Shown one piece after another: positions 55,609 through 64,000 of a stretch of DNA of 64,000 bases. Within the stretch, counting starts at the first letter, position 1, and each line of letters opens with the position of its first letter. Below the pieces are notes generated by a model. That model saw only the letters and a program-made list of their open reading frames with translations, was not told where the DNA came from and ran no database searches. Source of the stretch: Catalimonadaceae bacterium JC749 (GTDB lineage Bacteria; Bacteroidota; Bacteroidia; Cytophagales; Cyclobacteriaceae); NCBI GenBank assembly GCA_021730635.1, contig JAJNNC010000007.1, forward strand, positions 89,100 to 153,099, read 5' to 3'. Both the position numbers and the translations under genes were made by a program.

Positions 55609-56382
55609 TTATTCAAAACGCAGATGTTTGACGGATTCTCCGGAGTTGATGAGTTCCTGTAAAGCCTCTATGCCAATTTGTAAATGAACTTCAGCAAAGC
55701 GTCCGGTTACTTCACGGTCGCTCTTTTCAGTCTTGACACCTTCGGCGATCATAGGCAGGTCCGACACCAGTAAAAGTGCTCCGTGAGGTATTTTATTGAT
55801 AAAACCCACAATAAACAGGGTGGCTGTTTCCATATCTATCCCAGAGGCCCTGATTTTTTTCAGGTATTTTTTAAAGCTTTTATCATGTTCCCACACCCGC
55901 CGGTTGGTGGTATAGACCGTGCCTGTCCAGTAATCCATTTCATGCTTCTTGATCATAGAAGAAACCGCTCTTTGCAATCGGAAAGAAGGCAACGCCGGTA
56001 CTTCCGGAGGCATATAATCGTCGCCGGTCCCTTCCCCCCGTATGGCTGCGATGGGTAAGATCAGATCACCTACCTGCAGGTTTTTTTTAATACCTCCACA
56101 TTTCCCCAGAAACAAAGCCGCCTTAGGGGCTACGGCCGACAACAGATCCATCACGGTGGCAGCCATGGCACTCCCTATGCCAAAATTGATAATGGTCATA
56201 TTGTGTGAAGTAGCGGTTTGCATAGGACGCCCGAAGCCCCGGATCTCTACCTCAAAATTTTTGGCGAACATCTCTACATAATTAAAAAAATTGGTCAGCA
56301 ATATATATTCTCCAAACTCTTCCAGGGGAGTGCCTGTATAGCGTGGCAACCAGTTTTTAACAATGGATTCCTTATCTTTCAT
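55609..56382 (-). CDS. amn: AMP nucleosidase
   Basis: The ATG at 56382 (MKDKESIVKNWLPRYTG) begins the 257-residue protein; the earlier codons to 56457 resemble no family start. ATSHNMTIINFGIGSAMAATVMDLL, LFLGKCGGIKKNLQVGDLIL, and MDYWTGTVYTTNRRVWEHD, SGIDMETATLFIVGF match short AMP nucleosidases of Bacteroidota, which cut AMP to adenine and ribose 5-phosphate. It is divergent from the HsdR N-terminal-like gene. Confidence 0.92.
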   Translation of the reverse strand: MKDKESIVKNWLPRYTGTPLEEFGEYILLTNFFNYVEMFAKNFEVEIRGFGRPMQTATSHNMTIINFGIGSAMAATVMDLLSAVAPKAALFLGKCGGIKKNLQVGDLILPIAAIRGEGTGDDYMPPEVPALPSFRLQRAVSSMIKKHEMDYWTGTVYTTNRRVWEHDKSFKKYLKKIRASGIDMETATLFIVGFINKIPHGALLLVSDLPMIAEGVKTEKSDREVTGRFAEVHLQIGIEALQELINSGESVKHLRFE

Positions 56383-56424
56383 TATCTTATTTTTTCTATT
56401 AATACGGATGCATACCTTTGTGTC

Positions 56425-56883
56425 ATGGTATGTCTGAATCTTCCTCCTTTTGACCACAAAATTATAGAACGCGAAGGTAAAGCTACAATCTTTGATATAA
56501 TAAGAAAAAAATATGTGGCCTTAACTCCTGAAGAATGGGTAAGGCAGCATTTTATCCATTATCTGACCCGGCATTTGCAATATCCCAAAGCCCTGCTCAA
56601 TGTGGAAAATGGACTGAAGTTTAACCGTATGCTGAAAAGATCAGACATTGTCGTATACGACCGTCAGGGGCAGCTTTTTATGATCGTTGAATGCAAAGCT
56701 CATCACCACGCTATCACACCTGCTGTTTTTGAGCAAATTGCTGTCTATAATCACACCTTAAAAGCTCGATATGTAGTAGTCACCAATGGGCTGCAACATT
56801 ACTGCTGCCGGATCGACCACCAACAGAAAACCTATGCTTTTGAGGAGTCACTCCCATTTTTTGAGACTGCGCAACAGTCATAA
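56425..56883 (+). CDS. HsdR N-terminal-domain-like protein (PD-(D/E)XK fold)
   Basis: From the ATG at 56425 (MVCLNLPPFDHKI) the 152-residue protein matches the conserved Bacteroidota family carrying the type I restriction HsdR N-terminal nuclease domain. IFDIIRKKYVALTPEEWVRQH, LKRSDIVVYDRQGQLFMIVECKAH (Asp, then Glu-x-Lys) supply the nuclease core. There is no helicase or specificity subunit, so it is not a restriction enzyme in itself. A TACCTTTG at 56413-56420 lies very close upstream. Start 56425 is 42 bases from the amn start. Confidence 0.85.
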   Translation: MVCLNLPPFDHKIIEREGKATIFDIIRKKYVALTPEEWVRQHFIHYLTRHLQYPKALLNVENGLKFNRMLKRSDIVVYDRQGQLFMIVECKAHHHAITPAVFEQIAVYNHTLKARYVVVTNGLQHYCCRIDHQQKTYAFEESLPFFETAQQS

Positions 56884-56955: not shown

Positions 56956-58158
56956 ATGAAGAATGTCAAAACACTGCTCTTTTTAATCCTGATCTGGGTG
57001 GTTTATCATCTGCCTGCTACCCTCTTGCTGGCCCAACCGGTGGATACGACCCTGCTTTGCCAGGGGCATTATTATACGGAAGCAGAAGGAGCAGCCGCTT
57101 TAGCCCGTTCTGCGGAAAATTATCAAGACCTGGAGGGATGGAAAAACAGAGCCGAACGCATACGGCAGGGAATCTGGGAAGGTCTGCGTCTGTCACCGGA
57201 TTTTAAAAGAACACCCCTGAAACCTATCGTCCACAGCAAAAGGACCTATGATGGTTATACCGTAGAGAATGTGGCTTTTGAAAGTATCCCCGGCTTTTTT
57301 GTGACGGGCAACCTGTATCGTCCGGCCAAAGCACAGCCTACTTATGCGGCCGTCCTTTGCCCGCACGGCCATTGGTCAGATACCACCGACTATGGCCGGT
57401 TCCGGGAAGATATGCAGAAACGTTGTGCTACGCTGGCCAGAATGGGGGCTGTGGTGTTTGCCTATGATATGGTAGGATATGGAGACGCTGACCAGAGTTC
57501 TCATCAACACCCTGAAGCCCTGAAACTCCAGGTTATCAATGCGCTCCGGAGTGTAGATTTTCTGCTTTCCCTGCCTCAGGTGGACCCGAAACGCCTGGCT
57601 GTCACAGGGGCTTCCGGTGGAGGCACACAAACCTTTCTGCTAACAGCCCTGGATGAACGCATCGCCGTGTCGGTGCCAACCGTCATGGTAGCTGCCCATT
57701 TTTTTGGTGGTTGCGTCTGTGAGAGCGGCTTGCCCATTCATAAAAGTGCCAATCACCAGACCAGCAATGTAGAAATTGCGGCGCTGGCTGCGCCACGTCC
57801 CTTGTTATTGATTTCTGACGGAGGAGACTGGACAAAAAACACACCCGCAGTAGAGTATCCTCATACCCAGGCTATTTATCGTCTGTATGGTAAAGAAGAA
57901 AATGTGGGTAACGTACACTTACCCCAGGAAGGCCATGACTATGGGATCAACAAAAGAAAAGCCATGTATCCCTTTTTGGCCAAACATCTGAACCTGTCGC
58001 TGGATGCTGTCACGAATGCTGCAGGAGAGGTCGACGAGCACTTTGTGACAGTGGAACCCTATGCAAAAATGCATGTATTTGATGCGCAGCATCCCAGACC
58101 CTCTTACGCTGTAAAAGGTGACAAAGCGGTCAGCCGATTATTGGAAATGGTAAAATAA
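56956..58158 (+). CDS. Secreted alpha/beta hydrolase (acetyl xylan esterase-like)
   Basis: The 400-residue protein has a signal peptide (about 1-27) and an alpha/beta hydrolase fold with the nucleophile in AVTGASGGGTQTFLL near 216-230, an acidic residue in LLISDGGDWTKNTP, and a final His in QEGHDYGINKRKAM. YAAVLCPHGHWSD precedes the oxyanion region. Homologous Bacteroidota proteins are annotated as acetyl xylan esterases or dienelactone-hydrolase-like. The substrate here is not known. Confidence 0.85.
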   Translation: MKNVKTLLFLILIWVVYHLPATLLLAQPVDTTLLCQGHYYTEAEGAAALARSAENYQDLEGWKNRAERIRQGIWEGLRLSPDFKRTPLKPIVHSKRTYDGYTVENVAFESIPGFFVTGNLYRPAKAQPTYAAVLCPHGHWSDTTDYGRFREDMQKRCATLARMGAVVFAYDMVGYGDADQSSHQHPEALKLQVINALRSVDFLLSLPQVDPKRLAVTGASGGGTQTFLLTALDERIAVSVPTVMVAAHFFGGCVCESGLPIHKSANHQTSNVEIAALAAPRPLLLISDGGDWTKNTPAVEYPHTQAIYRLYGKEENVGNVHLPQEGHDYGINKRKAMYPFLAKHLNLSLDAVTNAAGEVDEHFVTVEPYAKMHVFDAQHPRPSYAVKGDKAVSRLLEMVK

Positions 58159-58175
58159 TAGGGCAAATCCGATAC

Positions 58176-58220
58176 CCGGCCAGAAAATGAGAGGCAAGCT
58201 ACCTGTTCTCTGCTGGCCGG
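58176..58220. terminator. Long hairpin between convergent esterase and alanine dehydrogenase genes
   Basis: CCGGCCAG (58176-58183) pairs with CTGGCCGG (58213-58220), with an inner pair GAGA/TCTC. It is followed on the plus strand by ATATTTTA. It stands 18 bases after the esterase stop and 28 before the end of the convergent alanine dehydrogenase gene and probably serves the plus transcript, possibly both. Confidence 0.7.
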
Positions 58221-58248
58221 ATATTTTACAGTAGTAACGCCTTATTGA

Positions 58249-59376
58249 TCAGGCAGTCACTTTCTGTATATGTTCTTCTACTGGCACGTAGGGCAATCCG
58301 AAGGCATCGGCCACGCTCTTGTAGGTAATATCTCCTTTCACCACGTTCAATCCCAGTTTCAACGGATTAGAGAGAGAACAGGCTTGTTGCCACCCCATAT
58401 TGGCCAGCTGTATCGCATAAGGCAAAGTAGCATTAGTCAGCGCTAAGGTTGACGTATAGGGCACAGCTCCCGGCATATTCGCTACGCAGTAGTGCACGAC
58501 ACCATCAATTACATAAGTCGGATTTTCATGGGTGGTAGGTTCACAGGTTTCTATACAACCTCCCTGGTCCACAGCTACATCTATCAATACGGTGCCCGGC
58601 TGCATCTCCTTCAGCATATCGCGGGTAATGAGTTTGGGTGCTTTGGCCCCCGGGATTAACACAGCGCCTATGATAAGGTCATGAGAACCGATCAGCGAAC
58701 GGATGTTATACTCACTAGACATGAAAGTGTTGACATTGGCCGGTAAGATATCGGCCAGATAGCGCAGGCGGTTAAGGTTGGTATCCATGATGGTGACGTC
58801 AGCCCCGAGGCCAGCCGCCATTTTCGCAGCCTGTGTGCCCACAACGCCTCCTCCTAAAATCAGCACTTTGGCCGGACGAACCCCAGGTACGCCACCCAGC
58901 AGTATCCCTCTCCCCTGCAAGGGTTTTTCCAGAAACCGGGCGCCTTCCTGCACAGCCATCCGGCCGGCTACCTCCGACATAGGCACCAGCAGTGGCAGAC
59001 TCCGGTCTGGTAACTCAACCGTTTCATAAGCCAGACAAACAGCGCCACTCTTTACCATCGCCTTGGTAAGTGTTTCGCTGGAAGCAAAGTGGAAATAGGT
59101 AAATACCAGTTGGTCTCTCTTGATCAGGCTATACTCTTTTTCAATAGGTTCCTTCACCTTGATAATCATTTCAACGTCAGCATATACTGACTCGATATCC
59201 GGTAAAATAGTGGCACCAGCATCTTTGTACTGGGCATCGCTAAAACCGCTTCCTTCTCCGGCATGGCTTTGCACCTTCACCGTATGGCCTAATTTAGTAA
59301 GTTCTTTCGCACCTCCGGGTGTCAGTCCGACCCGGTTCTCGTTGTTTTTAATTTCTTTGGGTACTCCGATGATCAT
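58249..59376 (-). CDS. ald: Alanine dehydrogenase
   Basis: The 375-residue protein has MIIGVPKEIKNNENRVGLTP at the start, KVKEPIEKEYSLI with catalytic Lys, YFHFASSETLT, VLILGGGVVGTQAAKMAAGLGA as the NAD loop, and VDQGGCIETCEPTTHENP. These are signature regions of alanine dehydrogenase, which converts L-alanine to pyruvate with NAD. It has the same fold as PntAA in this window. Single gene. Confidence 0.97.
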   Translation of the reverse strand: MIIGVPKEIKNNENRVGLTPGGAKELTKLGHTVKVQSHAGEGSGFSDAQYKDAGATILPDIESVYADVEMIIKVKEPIEKEYSLIKRDQLVFTYFHFASSETLTKAMVKSGAVCLAYETVELPDRSLPLLVPMSEVAGRMAVQEGARFLEKPLQGRGILLGGVPGVRPAKVLILGGGVVGTQAAKMAAGLGADVTIMDTNLNRLRYLADILPANVNTFMSSEYNIRSLIGSHDLIIGAVLIPGAKAPKLITRDMLKEMQPGTVLIDVAVDQGGCIETCEPTTHENPTYVIDGVVHYCVANMPGAVPYTSTLALTNATLPYAIQLANMGWQQACSLSNPLKLGLNVVKGDITYKSVADAFGLPYVPVEEHIQKVTA

Positions 59377-59519
59377 TATTCAAAATATTTTGTCTGTTAT
59401 TATTCAGCAGACACTAGAACAAAATTTAATGCTAAAAGGGTTGCAAATGTATGTTTTACTTTTCTCCCAGGTACAGGCTGTAAGACAAATCATGAGGGCT
59501 GCTGAATACCGTAAGCGGT

Positions 59520-59984
59520 CTATTCCTCTATGATCACACCGTCTGCCATAAAGGATATCCGCTGTTCCGGCTGGGTGATAGCTTCTATTTCTGCTTTGGA
59601 TTTGCCGGCATCTTCTGCATAGTGTCGCAGGGTTTCTACCGAAACAGTATCCACAAAAGCATGACCTGCCACCACGGCGGTTTTGCCAGCCACATCGGTG
59701 GGTACAAAAAAGCCATAGTCCTTAAACTGCACCATTACCTCCTGCCCGTTGCCCATATCCAGGGTCATCCAGCATCCTTTCACCTGACAAACATCGTTGA
59801 TGGTAGCTTTCAGTTTGGTTTTTGCTTCTCCCTTGCCTTCCACCTCTGTTACAAATTCAGTAGGAGTCAGGGCACCTTTTGCAGAGATCTTCTCCCCGAA
59901 ATTGGCAGGTTCTTCCTGTGCGAAGGCACAGGTCATCAGCGCTAAGCTTAAAAAAGCGGAAAATAACAGTTTCTTTATGGTCAT
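59520..59984 (-). CDS. DUF4920 domain protein, secreted
   Basis: The 154-residue protein has a signal peptide (about 1-22) and the DUF4920 region: TKLKATINDVCQVKGCWMTLDMGNGQEVMVQFKDYGFFVP, holding a Cys pair in CQVKGCW. Similar Bacteroidota proteins are secreted and of unknown role, possibly metal-binding. It follows no operon partner. Confidence 0.88.
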   Translation of the reverse strand: MTIKKLLFSAFLSLALMTCAFAQEEPANFGEKISAKGALTPTEFVTEVEGKGEAKTKLKATINDVCQVKGCWMTLDMGNGQEVMVQFKDYGFFVPTDVAGKTAVVAGHAFVDTVSVETLRHYAEDAGKSKAEIEAITQPEQRISFMADGVIIEE

Positions 59985-60035
59985 TATAATTTTATACTTT
60001 ATGATTATTGATTGTTCATTCTCAATGATAAGCGA

Positions 60036-60524
60036 TTACCAGCCCAGGGTACCCGGTGCTCCTTTGAAGGGGCCTGTAATATCGCCTGTAATCCAGCCGC
60101 CATAAAAATCACCCTCCTGGGGTTTTACTCTTTCACTGTCTACATAGCAGGCTTCCATCTTGGCCGGATAGAAAGCGACATAATTTTTTATTCCATCATA
60201 CCCTGGATTTGGGTAAGGAAAAAACCAGGCAGCCTCTACGGCTTCTCTCTCCTGGACCTTAATGGTATAGTAGTGTGCTACTCCTTTGAATTCGCAAAAC
60301 GAACTCTTTTCCGTTTCAAACAAATACTCCATCCATATATCTTCAGGAGGAATATAGTAGACGGGCGGATGGCTGGTTTCCAGCACGCGCTTTGCGCGAT
60401 GGGTCGTCGCCAGGGGTATTCCATTAAAAACCACCTGCACAAATTTGTGCACATCCTCTACCCTGGGCGGACGCGGGTAATCCCATACGGATTCCTGATT
60501 GAGTTTAGGCTGCGTTCTTTCCAT
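60036..60524 (-). CDS. DUF427 domain protein
   Basis: The 162-residue protein has the DUF427 core: DVHKFVQVVFNGIPLATTHRAKRVLETSHPPVYYIP, CEFKGVAHYYTIKVQ, and VEAAWFFPYPNPGYDGIKNYVAFYPAKM, ending DFYGGWIT. The family is a small beta-barrel-like protein of unknown function, widespread in bacteria and fungi. It stands alone between the DUF4920 gene and the AT-rich module. Confidence 0.9.
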   Translation of the reverse strand: MERTQPKLNQESVWDYPRPPRVEDVHKFVQVVFNGIPLATTHRAKRVLETSHPPVYYIPPEDIWMEYLFETEKSSFCEFKGVAHYYTIKVQEREAVEAAWFFPYPNPGYDGIKNYVAFYPAKMEACYVDSERVKPQEGDFYGGWITGDITGPFKGAPGTLGW

Positions 60525-60584
60525 AGCCTTTTTGTTATAAGTATAACACCCTATAAAAACCTTTTGATCCTGATAAAGTTACCA

Positions 60585-61220
60585 TCAATTGCTATTGTTG
60601 AACAATCTATCTAACCAATTTACAAATTGTTGGCATAAATCTTTATTGGTATTAAGATAACTTTTTGTGATGGCTAACCCTAAAGGAGTACCTGGATCTT
60701 CCTGCCAAGCCAACCAGGTATGAATTAAAGCCTTGGACTTATGTACATCTCGGTACTTGTGAAGTTGCTGACTTTCCAAGGTGTCCAAAGTTTGCTTAGC
60801 AAAAGGAAGTCCCTGATCCTTATCAGAAACTAATATGGTGATAAAATCTTCTATTGTGCCATTTAATTGATTATTGGGCATGAGCCACACACCCAAAGTA
60901 GGTAAATTTGATGCTTTAATGATACTACCTGAAGCATTTGGTTGATCTGGTACGCTGTAACCAATATTAACCAATATTTCACGCAGCTTATCCCATTGCC
61001 TAATCACATCAACATCAGCATCAACCACTATTCCCAAGCAATTCAGACCAGACTGTTTTAGCCTTACTGAGATTTGTGCAAAAAGTTTGTCTATTCCTGA
61101 ACAATCAATTACATCAAAGTTTTCTGGTATGTCAAAGTTATTACATAGTGCCCACACAACATGCTGATCATCATTGCCTTCAACCAAGAGTTTGTTATAA
61201 TGCTTTTCTTCAACTTTCAT
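60585..61220 (-). CDS. DUF3226 TOPRIM-fold protein, partner of AAA ATPase
   Basis: From the ATG at 61220 (MKVEEKHYNKLLVEGNDD) the 211-residue protein has the TOPRIM pattern: LLVEGNDDQHVV (Glu), GIVVDADVDVIRQWD (DxD), TLGVWLMPNNQLNGTIEDFI, then a helical C-terminus with HKSKALIHTWLAWQEDPGTPLG, as in DUF3226. TOPRIM domains cut or rejoin nucleic acids with metal ions. It starts one base after the stop of the ATPase gene, so the two are translationally coupled. No other nuclease motif is seen. The gene is AT-rich compared with its left neighbours. Confidence 0.85.
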   Translation of the reverse strand: MKVEEKHYNKLLVEGNDDQHVVWALCNNFDIPENFDVIDCSGIDKLFAQISVRLKQSGLNCLGIVVDADVDVIRQWDKLREILVNIGYSVPDQPNASGSIIKASNLPTLGVWLMPNNQLNGTIEDFITILVSDKDQGLPFAKQTLDTLESQQLHKYRDVHKSKALIHTWLAWQEDPGTPLGLAITKSYLNTNKDLCQQFVNWLDRLFNNSN

Positions 61221-61221
61221 T

Positions 61222-62364
61222 TTAACGCATCTCAATATCTTGGTCTGTAGCAATATCTAATTCAGAGGCGTTATAGAAAATAGGCTTGATTGTTTCTCCG
61301 AATTTTTCAAGGCGAAAGTACTGACCTTTTGCCTGATTTTCTTTGCTATTTAGTACATGGGCAAAGGCACGTATACAATCTTCACTATGTGTAGTAGCAA
61401 ACACTTGTACATTAAGTTCTTTAGCTAAGTTAAAGATCATCCTCCACAAATCCTCCTGAACCGTATAGTGAAGACCATTTTCAAATTCATCGATCAGTAG
61501 AAACCCTTTTTCGGCATTCACCAAAGCTAGAATGATAGTAAGTATTCTGTTCATACCATCACCCATGCTCTTGAGAGGAACAACTGATTTGTTTATATTA
61601 ATTTTTACAACGGGAGTTCTTTGATTTGTATCTTCATCTTTGATAAAAGTAATCCTATCTGTGCCGGGCTCAATGATTCTTAATGCTGCTACTACATAAT
61701 CTTCTTTATCAGTTAAAGCGATTTGATCCCAAAGTCGATCATTAATGCTTTTAGTGGTTTGTGATTCAACAAATTGATAATTGTAAGGCTTATTAAATAT
61801 GGGAAAGAGTGAACTAATATCCTTTTTAGCTAAATCTTTAGCATCATATATGTTGATAGACCTATCAAAACCAATTACTAAACCAGGTTGAAGTTTAGAC
61901 ATACTATTATTATCACCTTCTACAACTTCTTTGTGTGTTAAATTATATGTTTGATTAGTCTTTGGATCTATTGCTTCTCTTGAAACTTCTTTTAATGTTA
62001 CAAAACGAATATTGAGTCTGTCTTTAAGAAATTCTTCATTTTCCTCTGATATACTTTTTTTTAATGGACCAATCAATATTCTTTGCTTTCCCGAAAATTC
62101 TGCAATTCTATCTGAGAAAAGCGAAGTGTAAACCATAAGGTTTTCTACTGTACCGCTGTCTTTATAAAATTCATCTCTCACATTTAACAATCGGTTAATC
62201 CACTGCAAACTTCCTTTGGAGGCATAAAACGATATAGCTTCTAATAAAGAAGTCTTTCCTGTATTATTCTTACCAGCAATAAGATTAACCCTTGCCAATG
62301 ATTCAATCTCTAGGCTTTTTAGGTTTCTATAGTTTTTGATGCTTAATGAAGGCAAAAGTAGCAT
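61222..62364 (-). CDS. OLD/SMC-like AAA-family ATPase of a two-gene module
   Basis: The 380-residue ABC/SMC-type ATPase has Walker A GKNNTGKTS at about 32-40, the ABC signature-like LKSMGDGMNRILT near 265, Walker B FLLIDEFENGLH near 287-298 and the switch His in ATTHSEDC near 322. This AAA_15/AAA_21 design is that of the ATPases in OLD, PARIS, AbiEii-type and related defence systems. The base composition is low: two sampled 60-base lines have 19 and 15 G+C, against 35 in one from aspS. It is first in a pair with the DUF3226 gene and lies next to aspS, suggesting an acquired module. Confidence 0.88.
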   Translation of the reverse strand: MLLLPSLSIKNYRNLKSLEIESLARVNLIAGKNNTGKTSLLEAISFYASKGSLQWINRLLNVRDEFYKDSGTVENLMVYTSLFSDRIAEFSGKQRILIGPLKKSISEENEEFLKDRLNIRFVTLKEVSREAIDPKTNQTYNLTHKEVVEGDNNSMSKLQPGLVIGFDRSINIYDAKDLAKKDISSLFPIFNKPYNYQFVESQTTKSINDRLWDQIALTDKEDYVVAALRIIEPGTDRITFIKDEDTNQRTPVVKININKSVVPLKSMGDGMNRILTIILALVNAEKGFLLIDEFENGLHYTVQEDLWRMIFNLAKELNVQVFATTHSEDCIRAFAHVLNSKENQAKGQYFRLEKFGETIKPIFYNASELDIATDQDIEMR

Positions 62365-62431
62365 GAACTTTCTAAATATTTTGTTATATGTTACTAACGT
62401 ATGCCACTATGCTTTTGTGGTATAATTCAAA

Positions 62432-64000
62432 TTACTTTTGGAAAGCACGCTGCTGTGATACATCCTGCTTGACCTGAATATGCAACTCATCCAACTGTAC
62501 CTGTGAAATGGTAGAAGGCGTATCTATCATCACATCGCGCCCTGCATTATTCTTCGGAAAGGCAATATAATCACGAATAGACTCTGCTCCATCCACCAGG
62601 GCACACATACGGTCGAACCCAAAGGCTATACCACCGTGGGGGGGTGCGCCGTATTCGAAAGCATCCAGCAGAAAGCCAAATTGCTTCTGGGCTTCTTCTT
62701 CCGTAAAACCCAATATCTGAAACATTTTGTTCTGCAATCCGCGGTTGTAAATCCGGATTGATCCTCCTCCTATTTCCACTCCGTTGATCACCAGGTCATA
62801 GGCATTAGCCCGCACAGTGCCCGGGTCGGTATCCAGCCTCTCGATATCTTCCGGCTTAGGCGAAGTGAAAGGATGGTGCATGGCATAAAACCTTTGATCG
62901 TCTTCATTCCACTCGAGCAAAGGAAAATCCAGCACCCAAAGGGGCTTGAATACATTTTTATCCCGTAAACCCAGTTCATCTCCCATATGCAGGCGCAATT
63001 CCGCCATCGCTTTGCGGGTATGGTTTTTCTCACCCGACAACACCAGCAGTAAATCCCCAGGGGTGGCGCCCATGGTTTCTGCCCAGGCTTTCAGCTCTGA
63101 TTCACTATAAAATTTATCTACCGACGACTTCAGGCTGCCATCCGTATTATATTTGACATACACCAACCCCTTGGCGCCAATCTGAGGCCGCTTCACAAAC
63201 TCGGTCAGGGCATCCAGTTGTTTCCGGGTATACTCAGCACAACCTTTGGCATTGATCCCGACCACCAGCTCGGCCTGGTCAAATACGTTAAAACCTTTTC
63301 CCTTGGCCACCGCATTGAGCTCTACAAATTTCATCTCGAAACGGGTATCCGGTTTGTCAATGCCGTAGGTACGCATCGCTTCTTCATAGGTCATGCGGGG
63401 AAAATCGCCCATTTCCAGGTTTTTAACAGTCTTGAACAGGTGCTTGGTCAGCCCTTCAAACATGTTCAGGATATCGTCCTGCGTCACAAATGACATTTCA
63501 CAGTCGATCTGTGTAAATTCCGGCTGCCGGTCGGCCCGCAGGTCTTCATCGCGGAAACATTTGACAATCTGGAAATAACGGTCGAAACCGGAGACCATCA
63601 GCAACTGCTTGAATGTTTGGGGTGACTGAGGCAGGGCATAAAATTCTCCGGCATGCATACGAGAAGGCACCACAAAATCCCGCGCTCCTTCAGGCGTGGA
63701 TTTGATGAGCACCGGCGTTTCCACTTCTATGAACTCCTGTCCATCCAGATACTTGCGGGTTTCCTGCATCATCCGGTGGCGCAACTGCAATTTTCTACGC
63801 ACAACGCTACGGCGTAAATCCAGGTAGCGGTATTTCATACGCAGGTCTTCCCCTCCGTCGGTTTCGTCTTCTATGGTGAAAGGCGGTACTTTAGAGGGGT
63901 TTAATACGTGGAGAGCACTTACCTCTATTTCAATATCCCCCGTAGGCATTTTCGGATTTTTAGAATAACGCTCGATAACTTTCCCCTCTGCTTTCAGTAC
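62432..64000 (-). CDS. aspS: Aspartyl-tRNA synthetase (N-terminus beyond window)
   Basis: The frame is open from the right window edge (64000) to a stop at 62432. It begins within the end of the anticodon-binding domain ([34 protein letters not shown]), then the class II synthetase core: [34 protein letters not shown] (motif 1 to 2 region), [39 protein letters not shown] (motif 2) and GIAFGFDRM (motif 3). A bacterial-type GAD insertion is present. It charges tRNA-Asp. The first 60 to 70 residues are outside the window. Confidence 0.97.

Follow-up and report, generated by a model that had tools for sequence, protein, structure and literature searches.

A mobile ATPase–DUF3226 gene pair of the OLD/PARIS kind, probably a phage-defence module

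PARIS, which was described from hotspots of P2/P4-type elements (PMC9122126, in part, a wording used here for sources whose text was available only in part), has an ABC ATPase gene, ariA, beside a separate Toprim nuclease gene, ariB; the nuclease AriB is a tRNase that is held by AriA and released upon infection (PMC12409363, in part). In Class 2 OLD proteins and in GajA the ATPase and the nuclease are a single protein, in which the Toprim part is followed by helices, and in Gabija the gene for a GajB-like (UvrD-like) helicase lies downstream. For the OLD protein of B. pseudomallei the ligands of metal A are E400, D455 and D457 and those of metal B are E404, T506 and E508, while K562 sits in the helical domain after the Toprim domain (PMC6755086 and PMC7049728, both in part). 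The PDCs modelled in PADLOC-DB are candidates found by guilt by embedding, and for most of those in the core set validation is pending (PMC12988326, 2026, in part).

The gene pair described here lies near one end of a stretch of 64,000 nucleotides that was analysed as a whole (the window), with the following features in the order of transcription.

62432–64000, minus strand: aspS, clipped by the window end
62365–62431, minus strand: upstream junction, 67 bases from the aspS stop to the ATPase start
61222–62364, minus strand: ABC/OLD-type ATPase gene, 380 residues (PADLOC PDC-M38A)
61221, minus strand: single intergenic base from the ATPase stop to the DUF3226 ATG, as in a tight operon
60585–61220, minus strand: DUF3226 (PF11536) gene for a predicted TOPRIM-type nuclease, 211 residues from its ATG (PADLOC PDC-M38B)
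60525–60584, minus strand: downstream junction, 60 bases from the DUF3226 stop to the DUF427 start
60036–60524, minus strand: DUF427-type gene, beyond the DUF3226 gene

Both proteins match PADLOC-DB models strongly, the ATPase PDC-M38A at 325 bits and the DUF3226 protein PDC-M38B at 218 bits, and their genes adjoin; judged by protein models and adjacency, the pair appears to be a member of PDC-M38, from which no difference was found. An earlier reading of this DNA, made from the sequence only, had taken the pair for unlisted, which has to be corrected, because PADLOC models both halves as candidate PDC-M38 and the pair is thus already catalogued. The families that the sequence-only reading had proposed for an HMM search were all recovered, with 235 bits for PF11536 (cut-off 27) in the DUF3226 protein and 97.8 and 74.8 bits for AAA_15 and AAA_21 in the ATPase. 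A full-text search of open-licence papers returned none that names DUF3226, PDC-M38 or PF11536, and the available part of PMC12988326 does not mention M38. In build, being split and having a nuclease of the DUF3226 type, the pair is a variant of the OLD/PARIS kind.

The pair shares with PARIS, a system triggered by anti-restriction proteins, an ABC ATPase gene beside a separate Toprim nuclease gene, in the order ariA-ariB, and a weak fold similarity of the DUF3226 protein to PARIS chains. The two Pfam scores of the ATPase also lie above the thresholds of 32 and 27 bits that serve to recognise the ATPase of PARIS, or Class 4 OLD (PMC9122126, in part). However, the partner by which PARIS is recognised, AriB, is a DUF4435 (PF14491) protein, whereas the window nuclease is a DUF3226 protein that has no match to DUF4435 at E up to 1, and the AriA chains in the PDB have 464 residues against the 380 of the window ATPase. 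Nuclease regions of Class 2 OLD proteins head the fold ranking of the DUF3226 model, which shows a Toprim part followed by helices and has candidates, in the same order, for the E-x3-E/D, D-x-D, E and K positions of Class 2 OLD and GajA, but the window pair is two ORFs rather than one protein, and where Gabija has its helicase gene the window flanks are aspS and the DUF427-type gene. The AbiLi model PDLC02336 of AbiL matches the window ATPase over its whole length at 209 bits, whereas no AbiLii model matches the DUF3226 protein at E up to 1.

The gene pair in its window

The arrangement first read from the letters, an ATPase gene and a DUF3226 gene separated by a single base, was borne out, and from the one-base spacing we infer that the two are probably co-translated. 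A longer DUF3226 frame in the ORF list, started at TTG, would overlap the ATPase gene by 32 bases. The pair had also been described as AT-rich and on that ground as possibly transferred, a suggestion that both composition and comparison with a relative uphold. The pair has a GC content of 34.3%, the window as a whole one of 44.1%, and among the 46 window ORFs of at least 200 residues the ATPase gene has the lowest GC content and the DUF3226 gene the third lowest. Of 28 further aspS loci (one with just 223 bases downstream), that of genome G013 carries aspS, DUF427, DUF4920 and ald in the window order with the pair absent; these four gene names are presumptive. From the aspS stop to the DUF427 start the distance is 57 bases in G013 (locus L127) and 1907 bases in the window, and the 1850 extra bases hold the ATPase and DUF3226 genes and no other gene that we could see. 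In genome G001, a relative from the genus of the window genome, a pair likewise adjoins aspS, and the copy with an interrupted DUF3226 gene at locus L033 is that aspS-side pair. No att-like flanking repeat was found, the direct and inverted repeats around the pair being imperfect and weak, and an Rfam scan of window positions 58000–64000 gave nothing that reached the gathering score.

Predicted nuclease, ATPase and proposed working

Besides PF11536, the only Pfam match of the DUF3226 protein was to DUF6865, below the cut-off. A PDB sequence search with the protein and a profile identified no credible relative, whereas a fold search gave one. In the Foldseek ranking of its predicted model (mean pLDDT 96.0), the first four places are held by nuclease regions of Class 2 OLD proteins (6nk8, 6njx, 6njw and 6njv; TM-score 0.33–0.50) and the fifth and sixth by the PARIS chains 8ux9_A and 8v46_D, which we take for AriB, as these entries contain AriA as a separate chain. 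No match of this model reached E 0.001, and since the E-values are weak (5.2e-3, the best, and up), the likeness to OLD is a ranked resemblance and not proof.

The predicted catalytic residues are E14, D18, D67, D69, E124 and K163. In an alignment of the window protein with 64 of the 83 extracted relatives (A3, 65 rows) E14, D18, E124 and K163 are invariant, and D67 and D69 are present in 64 of the 65 rows. E14 and D18 are four residues apart (E-x3-D) and D67 and D69 two (D-x-D), while E124 falls in the first helix past the Toprim part of the model and K163 in a later helix; this order and the two spacings agree with E400/E404, D455/D457, E508 and K562 of the B. pseudomallei protein as given in the available text. 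The second metal-B ligand, T506, would correspond to position 122, where 54 of the 65 rows have methionine and no equivalent is conserved, and in part of the rows of a more divergent alignment (A1) the second aspartate of D-x-D is asparagine or glutamate and K163 is arginine. In the favoured reading the DUF3226 protein has the Toprim-plus-helices build that Class 2 OLD proteins show in their nuclease half. The original proposal of a TOPRIM-type nuclease with an OLD/SMC-like ATPase is thus supported by Pfam, the model and the fold matches.

The motifs that had been picked out in the ATPase by eye are all present: Walker A (GKNNTGKT, residues 31–38), the signature (SMGDG, 266–270), Walker B (LLIDE, 289–293) and the H-loop with its switch histidine (TTHS, 324–327), and their key residues are kept throughout an alignment of the window ATPase with 63 of the 80 extracted ones (A4, 64 rows, without L079 and L096). 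The predicted model (pLDDT 92.3) matches the ATPases of Rad50, SMC, Septu PtuA, a retron and Gabija; AriA is not among the 50 structure matches listed, and by sequence the solved AriA was found at E 2.4e-5 in a PDB search. Its other PADLOC matches include the AbiLi model and, at 98 bits, the AriA model.

Arginine is the last residue of 81 of the 83 ATPases examined, the exceptions being L079 and L096, and the position of the window residue R380 is arginine in all 64 rows of A4. Among 30 rows from the genome-search and plasmid loci, in which the window ATPase is counted twice and other copies are repeated, 25 are Arg-ended; the five that are not (L021, L026, L028, L030 and L032) are distant forms with a slightly longer chain. 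The constancy of this terminal residue equals that of Walker A and points to a precise role, be it in holding the nuclease or in packing on the ATPase. Since confidence in the model stays high up to its last block (pLDDT 94), the C-terminus may pack on the ATPase itself rather than form a free docking tail.

The pair is best read as an abortive-infection module like OLD and PARIS, and we consider it rather probable that the two genes make up a self-contained immune module of the split OLD/PARIS kind that works as follows. The ATPase, as sensor and scaffold, would be made together with the DUF3226 nuclease and, by analogy with PARIS and OLD, would form a complex with it and hold it inactive in the resting cell. 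A phage product or a shift in nucleotide level would then alter the ATPase such that the nuclease is freed or switched on. The DUF3226 protein would cleave nucleic acid, more probably DNA than tRNA, by a two-metal mechanism, and the infected cell would be killed or arrested, or the invading DNA destroyed.

The substrate is where the nearest rival reading departs, namely that the pair works as PARIS does, with the ATPase sensing a phage protein and freeing a DUF3226 protein that cuts host tRNA, so that translation stops. The gene order is that of ariA-ariB, the non-AriA chains of PARIS are the fifth and sixth fold matches, the ATPase matches AriA by PADLOC model and by sequence, and release of a Toprim tRNase from AriA on infection is what has been described for AriB (PMC12409363, in part). 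Against this, the DNA-cutting OLD regions outrank the PARIS chains, DUF4435 is not matched, and the DUF3226 protein has candidates for the helical-domain glutamate and lysine of DNA-cutting OLD proteins. It is on the fold ranking and these two candidate residues that DNA is placed above tRNA, by a modest margin, and tRNA cutting is a possibility that we take seriously and yet doubt.

If the favoured immune module is active, the OLD/PARIS group would gain a member present in several phyla (according to record names), DUF3226, a family without an assigned function, would be a two-metal nuclease, and the choice between DNA cutting as in OLD and tRNA cutting as in PARIS would become directly testable in a split module. 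The copies on small ColRNAI plasmids should make for easy testing in laboratory E. coli. A more far-reaching form of this reading, offered tentatively, is that such pairs may constitute a separate class of split OLD nucleases, in which a stand-alone nuclease half of the Class 2 type is placed under its own ATPase and the holding or switching of the nuclease depends on the near-universal arginine at the C-terminus of that ATPase; they would be minimal immune cassettes, sometimes the only annotated cargo of 4-kb plasmids, that protect host and plasmid against phages and rival elements.

Pairing, carriers and genomic setting

Relatives of the DUF3226 protein were taken as the best 80 of 571 from 84,980 species genomes, together with five loci from a viral collection. 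In 83 of these 85 loci an ATPase relative lies directly upstream, its end no more than 40 bases from where the DUF3226 match starts; the remaining two matches begin 121–124 bases from a contig end. In the reverse direction, a search of 395 genomes of the phylum, taken to be Bacteroidota, that scored four candidates per genome gave 21 sites for ATPase relatives at E 1e-20, and 19 have an adjoining DUF3226 match, partial in two cases. The adjacency is far beyond chance, and where it had earlier been asked how often the two genes adjoin elsewhere, the answer is that they do so near-obligately. The pairwise distances of one protein correlate with those of the other (r = 0.76, 57 pairs, not reached in any of 2000 permutations), as is expected if they are inherited together, and shared species history adds to this correlation.

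In each of the first three relatives a stop codon in DUF3226 lies ahead of the match end. The notion of frequent DUF3226 inactivation was dropped, as a clear early stop beside an open ATPase gene occurs in only two of the 85 loci, L033 and L087. Both have an early in-frame TAG, and L033 is on the contig of L003 (G001) and L087 on that of L005 (G046). The DUF3226 gene of L094 has two stops near its end, and in L061, L069, L109 and L111 it stops at the very end of the match. Two lone ATPases without a DUF3226 neighbour have altered motifs, SLGDD in place of SMGDG in L160 (G447) and TTQS in place of TTHS in L164 (G333), as if the ATPase decays after loss of the nuclease. One 541-residue ORF (L029:388-2013) has a P-loop at its start and a partial DUF3226 match (profile 3–75), and may be a one-gene fusion of the two.

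The pair is a mobile unit. On a Plesiomonas plasmid it lies ~3.3 kb past the end of a series of phage tail genes, and on viral contigs a baseplate gene adjoins it (L117) or is one gene away (L114), or an integrase gene is near (L115 and L116); at L113 the single neighbour protein tested had no match. In phage records tblastn at 1e-5 found no DUF3226, and the ATPase matches there were two, at 20% coverage. Apart from replication and mobilisation functions and a single gene annotated as a tRNA modification GTPase, the pair makes up the main annotated cargo of a 6.4-kb Citrobacter plasmid; a 4.2-kb Klebsiella plasmid has only an HTH gene and Rop annotated besides it, in the 4.7-kb type of E. coli plasmid there is one more small gene, and on the 4.1-kb Klebsiella plasmid L122 the DUF3226 gene spans the record start and is unannotated. 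As plasmid gene tables are incomplete, main or only cargo here means as annotated. M38B models are matched by four DUF3226 proteins from plasmids, with a score of only 41 bits for that from Klebsiella. The version of the pair in L124 occurs in 144 plasmid records, 138 of them from Klebsiella, and 46 of the 60 records listed are of 4.1–4.4 kb. In 142 of the 144 records identity to the L124 pair is at least 95%; a few copies sit on far larger plasmids, and certain records have the length of a dimer or trimer. A near-identity search found the L124 pair in nine of 5426 E. coli genomes, always plasmid-borne, and a search of E. coli genomes for distant relatives with L122, a query that was mainly ATPase as the pair crosses the record start, found none.

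Carriage as the main or only annotated cargo of some 4–6 kb plasmids would accord with a role mainly in stabilising the plasmid or element, in the manner of a toxin-antitoxin system in which DUF3226 would act as toxin and the ATPase as its antitoxin, so that cells losing the element die, and a commentary has described PARIS as a toxin-antitoxin system (PMC11455837). We think this improbable. In the Klebsiella plasmid L176 an IS1 lies within the ATPase gene while the DUF3226 gene is intact and shares its protein accession with the L124 copy, so cells tolerate DUF3226 in the absence of a whole ATPase, unless the DUF3226 gene is no longer expressed either, and deletion of either PARIS gene is non-toxic (PMC9122126, in part).

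The defence reading, which we prefer, has also to be set against the genomic surroundings. The nearest neighbours, 136 of 141 ORFs from 76 loci (five long ORFs were left out), match 195 Pfam families, none of them in more than three proteins, and a UvrD-type family is absent from the 25 most matched. Given such varied neighbours, neither a third gene nor a setting is constant for the pair, and the single conserved non-defence setting that would have spoken against defence was not encountered. The same 136 proteins match 63 PADLOC models in all, none by more than two proteins, and guilt by association is weak on that account; the 25 models listed have two members each and are overlapping helicase models and one MADS model. 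As a rough control, the 57 other window ORFs match four PADLOC models with one member each, a comparison that neither shows nor excludes a mild enrichment of defence genes, since the sets differ in size and source. Some copies do lie near prophage genes, and others on small plasmids. All in all, the pair is a real, mobile and near-obligate module that is probably a defence system.

A housekeeping role in DNA repair or the cell cycle, like that of the archaeal OLD protein Cran1, has a precedent in that OLD-family protein (PMC12796447, in part) and ordinary cellular families among the neighbours in its favour, but is very unlikely for a pair that recurs near phage genes and on tiny plasmids in changing surroundings, tolerates broken copies, and has a DUF3226 match in only 17 of 395 genomes of the phylum (378 are without) and in four of the 59 that comprise the window genome and its relatives, 55 of the 58 near relatives having nothing like the window DUF3226 protein.

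Elsewhere in the window, the second half of an ORF at 56218–56883 (plus strand) presumably resembles the N-terminal nuclease domain of type I restriction subunits. Among the 57 other window ORFs there is one match to a QatD model and at least one to a PDC-S03 model (PADLOC, 1e-10).
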